The notes below the pieces were generated by a model. The model was not told where the DNA came from, made no database searches, and worked only from the letters and a program-made list of their open reading frames with translations. The translations under genes and the position numbers were made by a program. From Humidesulfovibrio sp. (GTDB lineage: Bacteria; Desulfobacterota; Desulfovibrionia; Desulfovibrionales; Desulfovibrionaceae), in NCBI GenBank assembly GCA_031292175.1, contig JARLHQ010000010.1:1-64000 (forward strand): DNA of 64,000 bases, written 5' to 3'. This document shows, one piece after another, positions 10,061 to 20,666 of this stretch. Positions within the stretch are counted from its first letter, which is position 1. Every line of letters begins with the position of its first letter.

Positions 10061-11418
<1,358 letters not shown>

Positions 11419-11422
<4 letters not shown>

Positions 11423-12894
11423 GCGGGGGCTCCGCCATCGGCCGCGTTGGCCTCCTGGAACACGGGCAGGGCCAAAGGCAGGCGCAGGATGAAGCGCGCG
11501 CCCTGGCCCGGGGCGCTCTCCACGGCGACCTCGCCCTGGTGCTTCTCCACGATGCCGAAGACGATGGACAGGCCGAGGCCCGTGCCCTTGCCGACTTCCT
11601 TGGTGGTGAAGAAGGGATCGAAAATGCGCGCGATGTCCTCCGCCTCGATGCCCGCGCCTGTGTCGGCCACGGTGATCACGGCCTGGCCGTGCTCGGTGTC
11701 GCGCGCGGCGGTGATGGCGATGCGCCCGCTGCCGTCCTTGATGGCTTGCAACGCGTTGATGAGCAGGTTCAAAAAGACCTCCTGCATGCGCTGGGCGTCC
11801 ATGGGCAGGATGAGGTCCGGCGGCACTTCCCGGGTGATCTCGATGCCGGCGGGCACCTGGCTGGACACCAGGCGCACGGAGCGCTCCACCACGTCGGCCA
11901 GGGACGTTGGCTTGCGCTCGAAGTCCTTGGCCCGGGAGAATTCCAGCAGCCCTTTCACGATGTCGCGGGCGCGGGCCACCTCCTGGTCGATGTTGCCCAG
12001 GAGTTTACGCGAAAACGCGGGTTCAACCTCCTGCCCTTCCTCCAGCAGGATCTGGCAGGAGGTGGAGATGTTGTTCAGCGGGTTGTTCAACTGGTGCGCC
12101 ACGCCGCTGGTGAGCACGCCGAGCGAGGAGAGCTTTTTCTCGCGCACCAGCTGCTCCTGCCGTTTCTGCAGTTCCGCGATCATGTGGTTGAAGGCCCCGA
12201 TGACGCGTTCCACCTCATCGTCGGACTCGGAGGGTGCGAGGGCCTTGAAGCGGCCCTTGGCAATCTCCCGCGTGGCCTGTTCGATGCTGCGCAGGGCGGC
12301 GATGGCCTTGCGCCCCAGCAGGAACAGAAAACCGCTGCCCAGGGCGAGAAACACCACCACCGAGAACAGCAGCTGGCGCTTCAGGGAATGCACGATGGTG
12401 AGGATGCGGGCGCGTTCGTGGGTCACCAGCCGCTGCGAGAGGTCCACCAGCTGCTTGCCCGTGTCGCGCAGACGTTCGCGCTCGGCCTGGTGTCCTCCCC
12501 GGCCCTGGCCGCGTTCCTGGAACAGTCGTTCGGACACGGCTTCGTACTCGGCCAGCACGGACTTGAGCGCCGCATGCTCCTGCGCGAGGCCGAACTCCGC
12601 AGCATTGCCTTCGAGCTTCACCAGGATGCCGCTCGCCTTGGCCGCGTAAGCCCGGCTCGCGTCGAAGTCCTCCTCGTGGCCGTAGAGCATAAAGTTTTTT
12701 TCGTAACGGCGGATCTCCAGGATGGTGTTCCCCAGGTCATCGATGACCTCGATGAACCCCATCTTGCGCTCTATTTGCGCCAGGGAATGGTAGGAGAAGG
12801 TGCCGATGAGCCCCGCGATCACAACCGAGAGCAGCATCCCCAAGAGGACGCGGCGACGGATGTTCAGTCGGAGAAGGGGCTTCGGCGGAAACAC
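11419..12894 (-). CDS. Membrane sensor histidine kinase, partner of the sigma-54 regulator
   Basis: 491 residues from a GTG at 12894 with GAGGAG six bases upstream. TM1 is about residues 14-35 and TM2 about 172-193; between them is a helical periplasmic domain of about 135 residues rich in charged residues, of the four-helix-bundle kind. A HAMP linker follows, then the H-box GVAHQLNNPLNNIS and the HATPase boxes NLLINALQAI, DTGAGIE and GKGTGLGLSIV. The H-box class (HQLNNPL) is usual for kinases paired with NtrC-class regulators. The overlapping gene order with the regulator makes the pair very likely. The ligand is unknown. Confidence 0.93.
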
Positions 12895-13187
12895 GGTCGC
12901 TCCTCATGGTCGGCGGCATTCAATGGGGGCAGTCCTTTGCATATGCTTAAGGCGAAAGCGCAGTCAACCTCCGTGGGCCGGACGCTTGGCGCGGGCGGAT
13001 GCCCGCTTTGCCTCTTCCGGCCTCGAAATGCGCGCGACGGCGGAGGATCCACAGACGGATCACGCAAAATACATAAATAGGAACAGTAATAAAATTATGG
13101 CCTTGCTTGACCGGAATCGTGGAAGTCCCTAACGGAATAGACACGTGCGCGCAGCGCGCGCGAGCAACCCGGAACGGGGGAGGCAAA
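12895..13187. other. Divergent intergenic region, kinase / DUF364 operon
   Basis: 293 bases with no supported gene. An AT-rich block (13066-13099) probably carries the leftward promoter of the kinase. A weak rightward promoter can be drawn with TTGACC (13107-13112), 17 bases, then TAACGG (13130-13135). No ModE-like palindrome is visible. Confidence 0.4.
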
Positions 13188-13916
13188 ATGCCGGAGAAGA
13201 CTATTGAAACCCTGCGTGCCAAGGCGCTGGAGCTGTGGGAGGACAAGGGGCTGCTCCGGGAGCCCGTCTCCGTGCGTGCGCGGACCCTCTCGGCCGAAGA
13301 GGCCATCGGCGACCCGGAGGGCGGCGACTTCCCGCTGCGGAAGGGCAAGGAGCGGCTCATGGAGGCCGCGTTCCAGGGGGTCAGGGGCCAGGCCTTCACG
13401 GACATGTTCGGGGACTTTTCCGGCACCCTGGCCGACATCGCCGCCATGCCCCTGGAGAACAACTTCCGCCGCGCGGTGTTCGTCTCCACCCTGAACGCCA
13501 GCCTGCGCAGCCTGGGCCTGTGCGACCACACCGTACACTGCCGCGACGAGGGGCCCACCCAGTGTGCGCTCAAATTGCGTGAGCACATCAGCGAGCGCTA
13601 CGGCGACGTGCGCATCACCCAGGTGGGATTCCAGCCCAAGTTCGTGGCTGCACTCGCCCCGGCATTCAAGCTCCGCGTGCTCGACCTCGACCCGGACAAC
13701 ATCGGCAAGACCCTGCATGGCGCGAGGATCGAGGGCCCGGAGACGCGGGCCGAGGCCGTGGCCTGGGCCGACCTCGTCCTCGTCACCGGTTCCAGCGTGG
13801 CCAACGGCAGCCTGGGCAGCTTTCTGACCGGTCGCCCGGTCCTGGTTTTCGGCGTCACTGGGGCGGCCGCGGCCACGCTGCTCGGCCTGGACCGCTTCTG
13901 CGTCAATGCGGCCTGA
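13188..13916 (+). CDS. DUF364-family Rossmann-like protein
   Basis: 242 residues from the ATG at 13188, preceded by GGGGGAGG. The frame runs further upstream but lacks another ribosome site. The C-terminal half matches the DUF364 putative metal-chelation domain: VTQVGFQPKFV-like, LRVLDLDPDNIG and WADLVLVTGSSVANGSL. The N-terminal half has conserved Cys and His (GLCDHTVHCRDEG) of the associated DUF4213-like part. Such proteins accompany molybdate, tungstate or siderophore-type ABC genes; the exact role is not known. It overlaps the next gene by 11 bases and is clearly its operon partner. Confidence 0.75.
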   Translation: MPEKTIETLRAKALELWEDKGLLREPVSVRARTLSAEEAIGDPEGGDFPLRKGKERLMEAAFQGVRGQAFTDMFGDFSGTLADIAAMPLENNFRRAVFVSTLNASLRSLGLCDHTVHCRDEGPTQCALKLREHISERYGDVRITQVGFQPKFVAALAPAFKLRVLDLDPDNIGKTLHGARIEGPETRAEAVAWADLVLVTGSSVANGSLGSFLTGRPVLVFGVTGAAAATLLGLDRFCVNAA

Positions 13917-14664
13917 GATTTTGATGCTTTCGGCCCGGGTGCGCAAGAAGCTGCCGCATTTCACGCTCGACGTGGACATCACATGCCCGGCGGGAGCCAT
14001 CCTTGTGCTCACCGGGCCGTCCGGGTCGGGCAAGACCACACTCCTGCGCCTGCTCGCCGGGCTGGACCAGCCGGACGAGGGGCGCATCCGCCTGGGCGGG
14101 GCCGTGTGGTGCGACACGTCCGCCAGGGTGCGGCAAAAACCGCGGCAGCGCGGCATCGGACTGGTGTTCCAGGAGTATTCGCTGTTCCCGCACATGACCC
14201 TGGCCCAGAACGTGGCCTATGCCACCAACGACCACGCGCACGCGGCCGCGTTGCTGGATTTGTTCGGCATCGCCCATCTCGCCGGGGCGAAACCCGGCGC
14301 CATGTCCGGCGGGGAGCGCCAGCGTGGCGCGCTCTGCCAGGCCCTGGCGCGGCGGCCCAAGGCGCTCCTGCTCGACGAACCGTTCTCCGCCCTGGACGCG
14401 GCCACGCGCGCCGCCCTGCGCGGGGAGCTTTTGCGCGTGCGCGACCGCTTCGCCATGCCCATCATCCACGTGACGCACGATCTGGCCGAAGCCGCGCTGC
14501 TCGGCGACACGGTCTTGTCCATCAACGCCGGGGCGGTGGACCCGCATTGGTTTGACGTCCAGGCGGCCCAGCGCCTGGACGAGGAGACGGTCCTGCGCGG
14601 GCGTCTTGCCCGGTCCGCCCCCCCGCCCGGCCTGTTCCCAACCCCCGAAGGAGTCCCGGCATGA
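13906..14664 (+). CDS. ABC transporter ATPase, molybdate/tungstate-like (ModC/TupC type)
   Basis: 252 residues from an ATG at 13906; an internal ATG at 13924 is an alternative. Walker A is GPSGSGKTT, Q-loop VFQEYSLFPHMT, signature MSGGERQRGAL, Walker B ALLLDEPFSALD and H-loop IIHVTHD. The protein ends soon after the nucleotide-binding domain and lacks the C-terminal molybdate-binding TOBE region of classic ModC. It energises the permease encoded two genes downstream. The stop overlaps the start of the binding-protein gene (ATGA). Confidence 0.87.
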   Translation: MRPEILMLSARVRKKLPHFTLDVDITCPAGAILVLTGPSGSGKTTLLRLLAGLDQPDEGRIRLGGAVWCDTSARVRQKPRQRGIGLVFQEYSLFPHMTLAQNVAYATNDHAHAAALLDLFGIAHLAGAKPGAMSGGERQRGALCQALARRPKALLLDEPFSALDAATRAALRGELLRVRDRFAMPIIHVTHDLAEAALLGDTVLSINAGAVDPHWFDVQAAQRLDEETVLRGRLARSAPPPGLFPTPEGVPA

Positions 14665-15380
14665 GGAAATTTGTTTTGGCTGTGCTCTTGGTGTTCGCGT
14701 TCGCCAGCCTGGCCCAGGCCGGGCCGCTCATCGTGGCCGCCGGGGCGGGCTACAAGAAGTTCGTCACCGAGCTGGCCGGGACCTATGAGCAGCAGAGCGG
14801 CCAGAAGCTGGAGCTGGTCTTCGGCAACATGGGCCAGGTCGTGGCCCAGGCCAAGGGCAGCGGCAAAATCCAGCTGATCATTGGCGAACAGGGCTTTTTG
14901 CAAAAGACCGGCCTGGCCTTCGCATCCTTCCATGAACTGGGGCGCGGCGCGCTGGTGCTGGCCTGGCCCAAGGGCCGGGGCGTGACGACGCTGGACGACC
15001 TGGTCAAGCCGGAGATCAAGCGTCTGGCCATGCCCGACCCGCAGAAGGCCATCTACGGCGCGGCGGGCGCGGAGGCGCTCGCCCGGAGCGGCCTGTCCGC
15101 CAAGGTGCGGGACAAGCTGCTTGTCGTGGCCACCGTGCCCCAGGTGACGTCGTATCTGGTGCTGGGCGAGGTGGACGCGGGGCTGACCAATCTGACGGAC
15201 GTGATGGACCTGGGCCAAAAGATCGGGGGCTGGAGCAGGGTGGACGAACGCCTGTATGCGCCCATCGTCATCGGCGCGGGTGTGCTGGCCGACGCGCGGG
15301 ACCAGGCGGCCGTGAGCGCCTTCACTGTCTTCCTGGCCTCGCCCAAAGCCAGGGAGATCGCCCGGAAGCACGGCCTGTAG
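14661..15380 (+). CDS. Periplasmic substrate-binding protein, ModA-like
   Basis: 239 residues with a signal peptide (MRKFVLAVLLVFAFASLAQA, cut near residue 20). The mature part begins GPLIVAAGAGYKKF and resembles the ModA / type II binding-protein fold, with FGNMGQVVAQAKGSGKIQLI and DAGLTNLTDVMDLG. ModA proteins bind molybdate or tungstate. The oxyanion-contacting residues cannot be assigned with certainty here, so the substrate is inferred from the permease and ATPase types. Two bases separate it from the permease gene. Confidence 0.8.
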   Translation: MRKFVLAVLLVFAFASLAQAGPLIVAAGAGYKKFVTELAGTYEQQSGQKLELVFGNMGQVVAQAKGSGKIQLIIGEQGFLQKTGLAFASFHELGRGALVLAWPKGRGVTTLDDLVKPEIKRLAMPDPQKAIYGAAGAEALARSGLSAKVRDKLLVVATVPQVTSYLVLGEVDAGLTNLTDVMDLGQKIGGWSRVDERLYAPIVIGAGVLADARDQAAVSAFTVFLASPKAREIARKHGL

Positions 15381-15381
15381 G

Positions 15382-16068
15382 ATGTTCGAGTCCTGGTTGA
15401 GGGCGGGCATGGACCCGGCTGTGGGCTTCTCCGTGGGGCTTACGCTGCGGGTCATGGCCGTGGCCGTGCCCTTGCTCTTCGTTTTTGGCGTGCCCCTGGG
15501 CTACCTGCTGGGCCGGGGGCGCGGCAGGCTTGTGGGCCTGCTCGACGTGCTCGTGTCCCTGCCGCTCATCCTGCCGCCCATGGCCGTGGGCTTTGGGCTG
15601 CTTCTGCTGTTTGGACGGCAAGGGCCGCTCGGCGCGCCGCTTTTGCGCCACCTGGACGTGGAGGTCATCTTCAGCTTCGCGGGCCTGGTGCTGGCTGCGG
15701 TCACGGCGGGCATTCCGCTCATGGTGCGGCCCATCCAGGCCGCGGTGCGCGGCGACCTGAGCCGGCTCATCGAGCTTTCCAGCGTGCTCGGCAAGCCCTG
15801 GTTCGTGACCTTTCTGCGCGTGGTGCTGCCCCATTGCCGCCGCAGCGTGGCCGCCGGGCTGTTCCTGGCCACGGGCCGCGCCCTGGGCGAGGTCGGTGTG
15901 AGCCTGCTTTTAGGCGGCGACATCATCGGCCGCACCAACACCGTGTCGCTGGAGATATACAACGCCGTGTTCACCGGCGACTTTCCCCGCGCCGGAGTGC
16001 TGGCCTGCCTGCTGGCCCTGGTGTCCATCGGCCTGACCGTGGCGCTCAAGCGCACAGGCGGCGAATAG
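15382..16068 (+). CDS. ABC transporter permease, ModB-like
   Basis: 228 residues, strongly hydrophobic, with five or six membrane segments. The cytoplasmic coupling loop reads ATGRALGEVGVSLLLGG, the EAA-type motif of ModB and sulfate/molybdate permeases. The segment LPLILPPMAVGFGLLLL is also typical. It completes the transporter whose gene order is DUF364, ATPase, binding protein, permease. The gene ends eight bases before the end of the convergent Lon-receiver gene, with no clear terminator between them. Confidence 0.87.
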   Translation: MFESWLRAGMDPAVGFSVGLTLRVMAVAVPLLFVFGVPLGYLLGRGRGRLVGLLDVLVSLPLILPPMAVGFGLLLLFGRQGPLGAPLLRHLDVEVIFSFAGLVLAAVTAGIPLMVRPIQAAVRGDLSRLIELSSVLGKPWFVTFLRVVLPHCRRSVAAGLFLATGRALGEVGVSLLLGGDIIGRTNTVSLEIYNAVFTGDFPRAGVLACLLALVSIGLTVALKRTGGE

Positions 16069-16076
16069 CCCGCGCC

Positions 16077-18107
16077 TTACGGCTTCGGCTCCAGCACCAC
16101 GTCCACCAGCTCCGCCGCCTCGTCGGCCAGCACGATCTTGATGGCCGCGCGGATGTCCGGCTCCAGGGTGTCCGCCTCGGGCCGGTTGCCTGCGGGCAGG
16201 GCCACGGTGTGCACACCGCCGCGCTGCGCCGCCAGCACCTTTTCGCGGATGCCCGCCACGGGCAGCAGCGTGCCGCCAAGCGACATCTCGCCCGTAAGCG
16301 CCACGCCCGGCCTGGCGGGGCGGCCGGTCAAGAGCGAGAGCAGGGCCATGAGGATGGTCACGCCCGCCGAGGGGCCGTCCTTCGGGATGGCTCCGGCCGG
16401 GATGTGGATATGCAGGTCCTGGGCGGCGAAGAAGTCCGGGGCGAGTCCGAAGGTCTCCGCGTTGCCCCGGATGTAGCTGAGCGCCGTCTGTGCGGATTCC
16501 TTCAAGACCGCGCCGAGCGAGCCCGTGAGCAGCAGTTGGCCGGTGCCGCGCATCTTGGCCGCCTCCACGAGCACGATCTCGCCGCCCGTGTCGCTCCAGA
16601 CCAGGCCGTTGACCACCCCGGGGCGCGGGGCCGGCCGGGCGGATTCGTGCGTGAAGCGGCGCGGGCCGAGAAGACTCGTCACCAGTGCGGCGTCCACGGT
16701 CGCCGGATAGCCGCCGCCCTGCTTCGGGTCGATGCCGTCCTTGAGAGCCATGCGCGCCAGCTTGCGGCACACGGAGCCGATCTCGCGGTCCAGGTTGCGC
16801 ACGCCCGCCTCGCGCGTGTAGTCGCGGATGAGGCCGCGCACAGCCTCCGGCGTGAAGGTGGGGTAGGGGTGCGTCAGCCCGTGCTCCACACATTGACGGG
16901 GAACCATGTGCCGGAGTGCGATCTGCTCCTTCTCCGCCTCGGTGTAGCCGGGAAAGCGCACCACCTCCAGGCGGTCCTGCAGTGGGGCGTCCAGGCGGGA
17001 AAGGTCGTTGGCCGTGGCGATGAACATCACCTGCGAAAGATCGAAGGGCACGTCCACATAGAGGTCCATGAACTGGCGGTTCTGCTCGGGGTCGAGCACC
17101 TCCAGGAACACCGCGCCGGGGTCGCCCCGGAAGTCCTGGCCCACCTTGTCGATCTCGTCGAGCATGATGACCGGGTTGTTGACCCCGAGTCTGCGGATGG
17201 CCTGGATGATCTTGCCCGGCATGGCTCCGACGTAGGTGCGCCGGTGGCCGCGCAGCTCGGCCTCGTCGCGCATTCCGGCCATGGACATGCGGTGGAACTT
17301 GCGGCCCAGGGCCTCGGCGATGGCCATGCCGATGCTCGTCTTGCCCGTGCCCGGGGGGCCGGTGAAGCAAAGCACCGGGCCGCGCGCCGGGGCCAACGCC
17401 TTCCTGTGGCCCAGGGCCTCGCGCACGCTCGCACGCAGGTCGTCCAGGCTGATGGGTTTGGTGAGGTAATGGGCCGCGCCGGTGCGCATGGCCTGCACGG
17501 CGGAGTTCACCGTGGCGTAGCCCGTAACGATGATGATCTGCGTGCCCGGAGACAGCTGCCCGGCCTCGGCGAGCAGCGTCATGCCGTCCATCTTGTCCAT
17601 CTTAAGGTCCGTGACGATGAGGTCAAAGCTCCAGGCGCGCACCAGCTCCAGGGCCTCCAGGCCGTTGGACGCCGTGCGCACGGCGTAGCCCTCTTTCTTC
17701 AGCACATGCTCCAGATTCGTGCGGGCAATCTCCTCGTCGTCCACCACGAGCACATGCGGAGGCGCGCTGGCGGCCAGCGTGCGCCCGGCCAGATACTCCA
17801 GCAGGCGCTCCTTCACGTGGTCCAGGCCGAAATGGCGGCCGCTCAGGACGCGCTCCACCTTGGGGAAGTCCAGGCAGTCCTCGGTGTCTTTGGCCCAGGG
17901 CAGACCGCTCAGCCAGTCGATGTAGTTGAGCCCGATGGCGTACTCGGCCACCGCGGGATCGGTCTTGTCCAGGCGTTCCAGCTCCTTGGCCACCACCGCG
18001 GCCACATGGTCCGGCAGGGCCGCGCCGCGCACCTGGCCGCGCAGTTCGTCGAGCCCTTTGGCCGCGCCCGGCGCCTCCTCCTCTTCAGTCTTGCGGAAAA
18101 AAATCAT
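16077..18107 (-). CDS. Lon-family protease with embedded response-regulator receiver domain
   Basis: 676 residues; ATG with AAGGAG upstream. Order of parts: a short Lon helical region (about 30-113, ending [14 protein letters not shown]), a complete receiver domain (about 118-235), the AAA+ domain with Walker A GPPGTGKT (250-257) and Walker B VIMLDEID (about 313-320), and the Lon protease domain with Ser580 in [10 protein letters not shown] and Lys623 in [10 protein letters not shown]. The Ser-Lys spacing of 43 equals that of E. coli Lon. The receiver keeps VVDDE, Asp167 (IVTDLKM), Thr195 and Lys217. The usual N-terminal substrate-binding LAN domain is missing. ATP-dependent proteolysis controlled by phosphorylation is the likely role; no kinase is adjacent. 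It is divergent from the TSUP operon. Confidence 0.93.
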
Positions 18108-18229: not shown

Positions 18230-18333
18230 GTTGCAATTTGCAACACTTTTCATCTCTCTGTGTTGCAAAAATTATATCCTATAAAATCTGTGTGTTGCTT
18301 GATTGCTGTCACCGCGGTGTTGCGATCTGCAAC
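18230..18333. promoter_or_regulatory. Pair of GTTGC-N5-GCAAC palindromes
   Basis: GTTGCAATTTGCAAC at 18230-18244 is a perfect 15-base dyad around a central T. GTTGCGATCTGCAAC at 18319-18333 is the same with one mismatch pair. Their centres are 89 bases apart, and single GTTGC half-sites lie at 18262 and 18293. Paired dyads upstream of a candidate sigma-54 promoter are what enhancer sites for an NtrC-class activator look like, but the binding protein is unknown. Confidence 0.55.
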
Positions 18334-18409: not shown

Positions 18410-18425
18410 CGGCACGTCCCTTGAA
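18410..18425 (+). promoter_or_regulatory. Sigma-54-like promoter element of the TSUP operon
   Basis: CGGCACGTCCCTTGAA fits the -24/-12 pattern TGGCACG-N4-TTGCA, with GG and the -12 dinucleotide correctly spaced. The -12 reads GA instead of GC, which weakens it. Transcription would start near 18437, about 29 bases before the first ATG. Confidence 0.35.
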
Positions 18426-18465: not shown

Positions 18466-18639
18466 ATGAACAGCCTGCGTGACACACTGCAAAACACCTT
18501 CGCCGCCGTCGCCTTTGCCGAGAGCAACCTGCCTCAGGAAGCCCGCGAACTGTTGGGAGTCGGAGCGCAGCCCCGCAACCAGCAGGGCGTCCGCCCCGAT
18601 AAGAAGGGCAAGCGCCAGCGCCCCAGCCTCAAGGCCTAA
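18466..18639 (+). CDS. Small basic hypothetical protein (57 aa)
   Basis: ATG at 18466 with a G-rich ribosome site (AGGGGG); the frame also extends to a TTG at 18439. The N-terminal half (RDTLQNTFAAVAFAESNLPQ) is likely an amphipathic helix. The C-terminal half is disordered and basic (RPDKKGKRQRPSLKA). There is no signal peptide. I do not recognise a family. It is the first gene of the TSUP operon, 20 bases before the next gene, so it may be a partner or regulator of that module. Confidence 0.65.
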   Translation: MNSLRDTLQNTFAAVAFAESNLPQEARELLGVGAQPRNQQGVRPDKKGKRQRPSLKA

Positions 18640-18659: not shown

Positions 18660-19199
18660 ATGTCCAAGTCCGACAACAAGCCCCGCCAGACGGGCCAGCC
18701 GCCCAAGGCGCAGCCAGGGATCTCCCTGCGCCCGCGCCGCGGCTGGCGCGAGGTCATCGAGACCTACGGCGAGGCCCTCTCCATGGCCGAGGCCGGCGAG
18801 GGCGATCTCGCCCGCGAGATCCTGGGCGACTTCTACGCCGAGCACCGCAAGATCCTGGTGCTGGCCGAGGCCGACGGAGTGCCTGAGGCCATGGTCACCT
18901 ACAGCGTGAACTTGGCCGAGCGCCTGGGCTTTGATCTGGTGCTCCTGAGCGTGGACACCGGTGGCCGGAGCGCGCGGAGCTTCGAGGCCAGGGCGAAGGA
19001 CGGCGCGACGCCGCTCTTTGCCGAGGCCGCCCGGCGTGGCGTTTCCTGTGCGCACGTTCTGCGCCGGGGCAAGCGCAACGAGGTGCTCTCCGCCGTGAGC
19101 GTGGAGCTCCGGCGCGTGGAGTTCGTCATTTCCCGTCGGCCCGAGGCCGAGCGGCGCCAGGCCGCGTTGCTGGTGCCGGAATTTTCCCTCAAGTGCTGA
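18660..19199 (+). CDS. Universal-stress-protein-like domain protein
   Basis: 179 residues, GGAG ribosome site. After a basic, disordered N-terminus (1-28) and a helical stretch containing WREVIETYGEALSMAEAG, the region from about residue 65 resembles a USP / adenine-nucleotide alpha-hydrolase fold: KILVLAEADGVPEAMVTYSVNLAERLGFDL, then LLSVDT and a C-terminal EFVISRRPEAE strand. The nucleotide-binding GxxGSxS motif is not evident, so nucleotide binding is doubtful. It is soluble and part of the TSUP operon. The role is inferred only from position. Confidence 0.65.
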   Translation: MSKSDNKPRQTGQPPKAQPGISLRPRRGWREVIETYGEALSMAEAGEGDLAREILGDFYAEHRKILVLAEADGVPEAMVTYSVNLAERLGFDLVLLSVDTGGRSARSFEARAKDGATPLFAEAARRGVSCAHVLRRGKRNEVLSAVSVELRRVEFVISRRPEAERRQAALLVPEFSLKC

Positions 19200-19277: not shown

Positions 19278-19574
19278 ATGGCCCACGAAATGACGAAGAA
19301 GCAGGCCCTGGTGCGGATGATCGGCTTCGGCATCGCCAGCGCCGCGGTTTACGGGACGATTTTCCAGCATGCCAACGCCTTCACCGAATTGTGCTCGCGC
19401 GGGGGGATCTACGCCGCCATGCCGATCGCCGCGGTGTTCCTGGTTTCCTATGTGCATGGGGGCTTCGCCTCCAATCTCTGGACCGCGCTCGGCATCAACG
19501 CCAAGAGCCCGGCCAAGACCGTGCAGGCCACCCAGACCAAGCGCCCCGAAGTGCGCGCCACCGTCAACGCCTAA
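19278..19574 (+). CDS. Small membrane protein (98 aa)
   Basis: The ribosome site CGGAGG lies seven bases before the ATG. Two hydrophobic segments are visible (about residues 12-33 and 44-62), followed by a basic, disordered tail (NAKSPAKTVQATQTKRPEVR). It precedes the TSUP exporter by 27 bases and could be a small subunit or assembly partner. I do not recognise a family. Confidence 0.72.
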   Translation: MAHEMTKKQALVRMIGFGIASAAVYGTIFQHANAFTELCSRGGIYAAMPIAAVFLVSYVHGGFASNLWTALGINAKSPAKTVQATQTKRPEVRATVNA

Positions 19575-19601: not shown

Positions 19602-20666
19602 ATGGACGTCGCCCTCGACAGCCTGAAGTTCATCGACCTCACCACGTCCTCCATCATCTTCCTGTTCATCGTCGGCTTCATCGGCGGTCTGGTGAGCGGC
19701 TTCATCGGTTCCGGCGGGGCCTTCGTGCTCACCCCCGGCATGATGAGCCTGGGCGTGCCCGGCACCGTGGCCGTGGCCAGCAACATGTGCCACAAGTTCC
19801 CCAAGGCTCTCGTGGGCGCCATCAAGCGCTTCCGCTACGGCCAGGTCGACATCAAGCTCGGCCTCGTCATGGCCGCCAGCGCGGGCATTGGCGTGCAGGT
19901 GGGCATCAAGATCCAGAACATGATCCTGGCTGCCTGGGGCCAGGCTGGCTCCAATCTGTACGTCAGCCTGTCCTTCGTGGCCGTCCTGGTCGTCGTGGGC
20001 AGCTACGTGTTCTACGACGCCATGAAGTCCCGCAACAACGAGGGCAAGGACACAACGCCCGCCCTGGCGCTGAAGCTGCAGAAGATCAATCTCTGGCCCA
20101 TGATCCATTTCAAGACGGCCAACGTGCGCATCTCCCTGTGGTTCACCATTCCGGTCGGCTTCGCCACCGGCATGCTGGCCGCCACAATCGCCGTGGGCGG
20201 GTTCATCGGCGTGCCCGGCATGATCTACGTCATGGGCGTGGGCGGCCTGGTCTCTTCCGCCAGCGAGCTGGTTATCGCCTTCGTCATGGGCCTGGGCGGC
20301 ACCATCAACTGGGCCATGCACGGCATGGTCGACATCCGCCTCACCCTTATCATCCTGGCCGGCTCGCTTCTGGGCGTGCAGCTTGGGGCCATCGGCACCA
20401 CCCTGGTGCGCGAGGTCATGATCAAGATCGTCATGGGCAGCATCATGCTCATCGTGGCCGTGAGCCGCGCGCTGGCCACGCCCAAGTACCTGGTCCAACT
20501 GGGCCTCATGGACATCGCCCCGGAAAAGGTGGCCATTCTGGACAAGACGAGCTTCGTCATCATGTGCGCCGCCCTCACCTTGGGCGCGGTGATCATCCTT
20601 GGCAGCATGCTCAAGGCCCGCAGGGCCATGGCCCGGCAGGCCCAGGAGGCTTACGGCCAGGTCTAG
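19602..20666 (+). CDS. TSUP-family (TauE/SafE) transporter
   Basis: 354 residues with about eight membrane segments, preceded by AAGGAG. The TSUP signature appears twice: FIGGLVSGFIGSGGAFVLTPGMM near the N-terminus and TGMLAATIAVGGFIGVPGMIYVMG in the second half, reflecting the internal repeat of the family. A cytoplasmic loop of about 60 residues lies between the halves. TSUP proteins export sulfite, sulfonates or other organic anions. In a sulfate reducer sulfite or another sulfur anion is a reasonable guess but is not shown by the sequence. It is the last gene of its operon and is followed by a terminator. Confidence 0.9.
   Translation: MDVALDSLKFIDLTTSSIIFLFIVGFIGGLVSGFIGSGGAFVLTPGMMSLGVPGTVAVASNMCHKFPKALVGAIKRFRYGQVDIKLGLVMAASAGIGVQVGIKIQNMILAAWGQAGSNLYVSLSFVAVLVVVGSYVFYDAMKSRNNEGKDTTPALALKLQKINLWPMIHFKTANVRISLWFTIPVGFATGMLAATIAVGGFIGVPGMIYVMGVGGLVSSASELVIAFVMGLGGTINWAMHGMVDIRLTLIILAGSLLGVQLGAIGTTLVREVMIKIVMGSIMLIVAVSRALATPKYLVQLGLMDIAPEKVAILDKTSFVIMCAALTLGAVIILGSMLKARRAMARQAQEAYGQV

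Follow-up and report, generated by a model that had tools for sequence, protein, structure and literature searches.

Encoded on the minus strand at positions 16077-18107 of the 64,000-nucleotide stretch of Humidesulfovibrio DNA that we analysed (the window) is a 676-residue protein, here REC-Lon, in which a Lon three-helix bundle, a response-regulator receiver domain, an AAA+ module and an S16 protease domain form one chain. The locus is very probably the same kind of system as DVU3303-3305 of D. vulgaris, and the overall best explanation, which we regard as probable, is a three-component phosphorelay in which a phospho-gated REC-Lon would be the proteolytic output arm. DVU3303-3305 was described in 2011 as a three-component system of a Lon-containing response regulator, a kinase and a second regulator, and phosphorylation-dependent proteolysis by DVU3303 was already suggested there (PMC3333781), so that both the kind of system and the hypothesis of phospho-control have been in print since that year. 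A search for receiver-Lon proteins under other names gave nothing relevant beyond three D. vulgaris papers, and no biochemical test of a phospho-controlled receiver-Lon was found in the literature searched. To this record the present analysis adds conservation over 98 loci, a near-fixed register of the receiver and an upstream palindrome.

The REC-Lon frame has an ATG start and zero internal stops, and its Pfam domains each score above their cut-offs: Response_reg at residues 119-228 (103.7 bits), AAA at 246-384, Lon_lid at 408-458 and Lon_C at 471-672 (227.5 bits). From the ORF, Pfam and alignments, the chain divides into a retained Lon three-helix-bundle region (residues about 17-115; 17763-18059), which aligns with MtaLon from residue 244 (4ypl, 4ypn), a receiver domain (residues about 118-236; 17400-17756) with D167, T195, K217 and the acid pocket D123/D124, an AAA+ module with its lid (residues about 245-458; 16734-17375) carrying Walker A K256, Walker B D317/E318, R379 and R437, and a Lon S16 protease domain (residues 471-672; 16092-16697) with the Ser580-Lys623 dyad, all on the minus strand. 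Alignment with the canonical Lon that this genome also encodes reveals that REC-Lon begins within the Lon helical region and that the receiver sits after the three-helix bundle and before the strand that precedes Walker A. Together with Pfam, this bears out the initial annotation, which had placed a receiver at the junction of the helical region and the AAA+ motor. Its claim that LAN, the substrate-binding domain of Lon, has been lost also holds, LAN being missing among 24 Pfam families at E <= 1 and the chain starting in the helical region; the coiled coil is absent too, and the three-helix bundle is kept. REC-Lon has the Walker A/B AAA+ module and S16 Ser-Lys protease in one chain that mark LonA, and the acid pocket, phospho-Asp, Thr/Ser and Lys that mark a response regulator are all there. 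Judged by its sequence, it is a member of the Lon family but no canonical LonA, LAN being absent.

REC-Lon was modelled as a monomer, a single chain outside its ring, from 23 sequences (pLDDT 81.6, pTM 0.74). Model residues 17-676 match residues 244-774 of MtaLon (4ypl chain F) with a Z of 32.0 and an r.m.s.d. of 2.7 over 525 residues, and the receiver of the model, residues 116-237, matches the receiver structure 8fk2 with an r.m.s.d. of 1.0. Among the matches listed, the best solved structures for the receiver include the NtrC-family receivers 4l4u, 1zy2 and 1ny5; no solved receiver-Lon structure is among the best 60 of 316 structure matches. One helix of the monomer model, residues 96-114, leads into receiver strand 1 at residue 118.

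Full-length REC-Lon occurs in 28 of the 59 genomes searched, and matches to the N-region plus receiver in 36 of 297 genomes sampled from the phylum, this genome being included in both counts. The named assemblies with REC-Lon, taken from the best 80 matches, from which no frequency is derivable, belong to Desulfobacterota and Nitrospirota. The full-length occurrences and the named assemblies together dispose of the sequencing artefact that the initial annotation had allowed for. A first list of 106 loci, less 4 that are not REC-Lon and 4 identical copies, gave 98 distinct loci, and in all 98 the residues D123, D124, D167 and K217 are kept, as are Walker A K256, Walker B D317 and R379. T195 is present in 97 of the 98, the remaining one having Ser, and S580 and K623 are present in all 97 readable loci, so that the dyad previously called intact is so. 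The five residues that had been named (Asp167, Thr195, Lys217, Ser580 and Lys623) were all correct and are invariant in 23/23 aligned relatives. These data support a receiver that is intact and, by its sequence, should be phosphorylatable; a degenerate (pseudo-) receiver was considered and rejected, as no degenerate receiver or protease is found in the 98 loci. A divergent REC-Lon at locus L036 (genome G019) has changed E318 (Walker B Glu), N367 (sensor-1) and R437 (sensor-2); its receiver and dyad are intact, and its ATPase may be impaired.

H92 and D124 are 33 residues apart in 98/98 loci, and H92 lies 164-166 residues from Walker A K256, again in 98/98, despite both receiver junctions (residues 112-118 and 237-241) varying freely; the lid-protease linker ranges in length from 33 to 56. 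A near-fixed register with variable junctions points to a rigid seat for the receiver, with Walker A on one side and the helix running to the ATP site on the other. In AAA+ proteins this helix lines the nucleotide pocket. A rigid splice of this kind fits a gate, acting on the ATPase or on ring assembly, better than a loose adaptor, and we lean, if only slightly, towards direct gating of REC-Lon ATPase or proteolysis by phosphorylation. Phosphorylation of D167 would shift the receiver joint, which would turn on the AAA+ ring, through its assembly or its ATP hydrolysis, and with it proteolysis. If true, a direct phospho-switch inside Lon would be a rare case of single-chain signal-controlled proteolysis.

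The alternative that survives best makes the receiver a substrate adaptor fused in cis: once phosphorylated, it would catch a client such as the partner regulator, a 57-residue protein or a stress protein and hand it to a ring that is always active. RssB and CpdR are precedents for such a role, and LAN, the usual substrate-recognition domain, is missing from REC-Lon. MtaLon without its N-domain is narrow in its substrates (PMC8087443), so that another recognition element would be useful. Against this, the register, nearly constant before and after the receiver, favours mechanical coupling over a loose tether, and we consider an adaptor rather unlikely. The MtaLon AAAP construct, which has no N-terminal domain, degrades casein but not test substrates that had been thermally unfolded or aggregated (PMC8087443), which makes general quality control by REC-Lon unlikely; a phospho-gated, LAN-less REC-Lon would be confined to a few substrates that are disordered or tagged.

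The proposed cognate kinase is a 491-residue histidine kinase with HAMP, HisKA and HATPase_c domains (11419-12894, minus strand), whose gene overlaps by 4 bp that of a 453-residue sigma54-dependent response regulator with REC, Sigma54_activat and HTH_8 domains (10061-11422, minus strand). The pair lies 3.2 kb downstream of REC-Lon on the same strand, so the earlier remark that no kinase is adjacent stands for the neighbouring gene, which is no kinase, and fails beyond it. The further claim that the partner is an orphan is not supported, and an orphan receiver was rejected: of the 59 genomes searched, 28 have REC-Lon (this genome included) and 26 of these also have an orthologue of the kinase, against 0 of the 31 without REC-Lon, cases that are not independent, as 13 of the 28 REC-Lon genomes are of one genus. 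The two REC-Lon genomes in which no kinase is seen, G006 and G008, have their loci at contig ends. Orthologues were told from paralogues by neighbourhood, and the separation uses position plus score: kinase matches in the 31 genomes without REC-Lon never exceed 239 bits, in REC-Lon genomes a paralogue can score as high as 269 bits, against 267 for the true orthologue in G056. Two genomes of the same genus, G001 and G009, have neither REC-Lon nor the kinase orthologue, a natural co-absence. Of the 43 loci that span 15 kb or more, 37 have the kinase-regulator pair near REC-Lon, at a median distance of 405 bp and a maximum of 4.8 kb. It is unseen in the other 6, where the stretch ends in some and L107 shows none; for L046, one of the 6, the pair is found in genome G012, some 14 kb away. 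The kinase at 11419-12894 probably phosphorylates REC-Lon.

REC-Lon lies outside the kinase transcription unit here, with an oppositely oriented cassette of four genes intervening (13107-16068, plus strand), made up of a DUF364-like gene and a ModABC-like molybdate/tungstate ABC transporter. The modA profile scores 92.4 bits, above its cut-off, and modB and modC score below theirs. The binding-protein gene of the cassette is seen in 2 of 13 same-genus loci, that of the window and that of G004, some of the loci being cut by contig ends. In two genomes of the same genus, G014 and G010, the order is REC-Lon, kinase, regulator on one strand with no cassette between, so the cassette has probably separated a once contiguous gene group, and we do not think that it is part of the REC-Lon system. 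In D. vulgaris exposed to chlorate, DVU3303-3305 and tungstate uptake and cofactor genes are among 15 detrimental genes (PMC10102598). With the intervening cassette, the receiver-Lon, histidine kinase and sigma54 regulator genes are genomically linked here as in a DVU3303-3305-type system.

The kinship of the receivers, at the level of sequence, favours a kinase shared by REC-Lon and the sigma54 regulator. Within this genome, the nearest of 68 matches to the REC-Lon receiver is the neighbouring sigma54 regulator at 88 bits, the next scoring 77.7. In a receiver tree built on few columns, 19 REC-Lon and 18 partner-regulator receivers cluster with just 4 of 36 other receivers of this genome (support 97/93). 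The REC-Lon receivers split into two supported sets in this tree, one of 15, joined by a stray long row, and one of 4, and a single origin of REC-Lon receivers therefore does not follow. At 19 presumed kinase-contact positions, picked from general knowledge, the neighbouring regulator has 11/19 in common with REC-Lon and the next best receiver 9/19, a modest similarity; the comparison set was 36 framed receivers of 40 taken from 66 other matches in the genome.

Two palindromes of the form GTTGC-N5-GCAAC lie between REC-Lon and the divergent genes, GTTGCAATTTGCAAC at 18230-18244, a proposed operator of the sigma54 regulator, and GTTGCGATCTGCAAC at 18319-18333, a second. Counted within 500 bases upstream of REC-Lon, the palindrome is exact in 41 of 96 loci and present with at most one mismatch in 70 of 96 (two of the 98 loci, with less than 400 bases upstream, were left out); within one mismatch it is missing from 26 of the 96 regions. 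A shuffle control (n=1920) gave 0 exact occurrences and 25 with at most one mismatch, and two control palindromes are each found in 2/96 upstream regions at that tolerance. Four of eight loci titled Nitrospirota or Nitrospirae carry the palindrome with at most one mismatch. From these data we infer that the sigma54 regulator uses it as its operator. A conserved half palindrome, TGTTGCA, is seen in the same-genus alignment between the two full ones (18260-18271). Over the whole window at one mismatch, the palindrome shows no enrichment, with 5 occurrences where 3.8 are expected. This genome has 5 exact places, 2 of them here, and the reversed pattern gives 3; as the 3 other exact places equal this control, no further regulon members are claimed from the palindrome in this genome.

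Beyond the palindromes, a possible -24/-12 element, GGCAC-N5-TTGAA, off-consensus at -12, faces the divergent genes (18411-18425, plus strand). The strict -24/-12 pattern was found in none of 17 intergenic regions, and a looser GG-N11-type pattern in 12/12 same-genus regions and 1/5 more distant ones (L050 yes, L051-L054 no), so that a sigma54 promoter of the divergent genes is no more than probable. In the direction of REC-Lon, no clear promoter came to light. The divergent genes, all on the plus strand, encode a small conserved ORF of 57 residues with no Pfam-level or NCBIfam name (18466-18639), a 179-residue protein that is universal-stress-protein-like by eye only, Pfam and NCBIfam being without a match (18660-19199), a conserved small protein of 98 residues, membrane-like by eye (19278-19574), and a putative anion transporter of the TauE/SafE family (19602-20666), whose TauE-type match recurs in 28 of 43 REC-Lon loci of at least 15 kb. 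Divergent UspA-type and membrane/transporter genes of the DVU3303-3305 kind are present, the UspA-like call being made by eye with no Pfam match. Our guess is that the 57-residue protein might be a regulator or a client of REC-Lon, and it is likewise a guess that the UspA-like protein might be its substrate. In D. vulgaris, DVU3305, listed among the sigma54 regulators (PMC4641369), controls the operon that encodes it as well as DVU3302-3298, some of which have UspA-type domains (PMC3333781); under chlorate, DVU3299, a putative anion transporter, is important (PMC10102598).

In the phosphorelay that we prefer, the one kinase (11419-12894) would serve two response regulators, the sigma54 activator (10061-11422) and REC-Lon, and the activator would turn on the divergent genes after binding the palindromes that lie between them and REC-Lon. 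We infer the phosphotransfer from kinase to REC-Lon, the gating, its sign and the substrate. A more specific version is a phospho-clutch acting in cis, in which one kinase drives both a sigma54 programme and a LAN-less Lon whose receiver directly drives ring assembly or ATP hydrolysis; we put it forward tentatively, as possible rather than likely. If it were true, one stimulus would trigger both the synthesis of new proteins and the removal of old ones, and would do so in Nitrospirota as well as in sulfate reducers.

The tight linkage of REC-Lon with exactly the kinase and sigma54 regulator genes would also suit a negative feedback, in which phosphorylated REC-Lon degrades the regulator or the kinase and so ends the response. 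In the 2023 chlorate study of D. vulgaris, DVU3303, DVU3304 and DVU3305 are all detrimental, with pairwise cofitness >0.9 (PMC10102598). Disruptions of protease, kinase and regulator have the same fitness sign, whereas a protease that removes the regulator should show the opposite sign, unless the insertions are polar. Polar insertions could be the cause of the cofitness if the three genes are one operon; the word 'polar' is absent from that paper (PMC10102598). With this proviso, the shared sign disfavours simple feedback degradation of the regulator, which we hold to be decidedly unlikely. A receiver with no active role, left as a relic or serving as a phosphate sink beside a Lon part independent of phosphorylation, is highly improbable, as not one of the 98 receivers has lost D123, D124, D167 or K217. 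For the phosphorelay with a phospho-gated REC-Lon, the conservation, register and palindrome data now make a testable question, with a defined kinase, defined residues (D167 and S580) and a promoter.

Among known systems, DVU3303-3305 is the closest in kind, with its Lon-containing response regulator, one kinase and one sigma54 regulator (PMC3333781, PMC4641369, PMC10102598), its upstream membrane, hypothetical and UspA-type genes and a putative anion transporter as target; the orthology of DVU3303 and REC-Lon rests on this published description, the 78 loci from named assemblies including no named D. vulgaris chromosome. The present locus differs in that the ModABC-like cassette splits REC-Lon from the kinase pair and in that its transporter is TauE-like. 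With the canonical LonA of E. coli, Meiothermus taiwanensis and Thermus, REC-Lon shares the three-helix bundle, AAA+ module, lid and S16 protease; it differs from them in having no LAN domain, no coiled coil and a receiver inserted before Walker A. The NtrC-class sigma54 regulators likewise carry a receiver directly N-terminal to an AAA+ module, and the REC-Lon receiver matches NtrC-family structures and groups with the receiver of the partner regulator, but the output of REC-Lon is proteolysis and not transcription, and its receiver is flanked on both sides by Lon segments. In RssB and CpdR, which work with ClpXP, a receiver controls an ATP-dependent protease as a separate adaptor, whereas in REC-Lon the receiver is spliced into the protease chain itself, and the protease is Lon.
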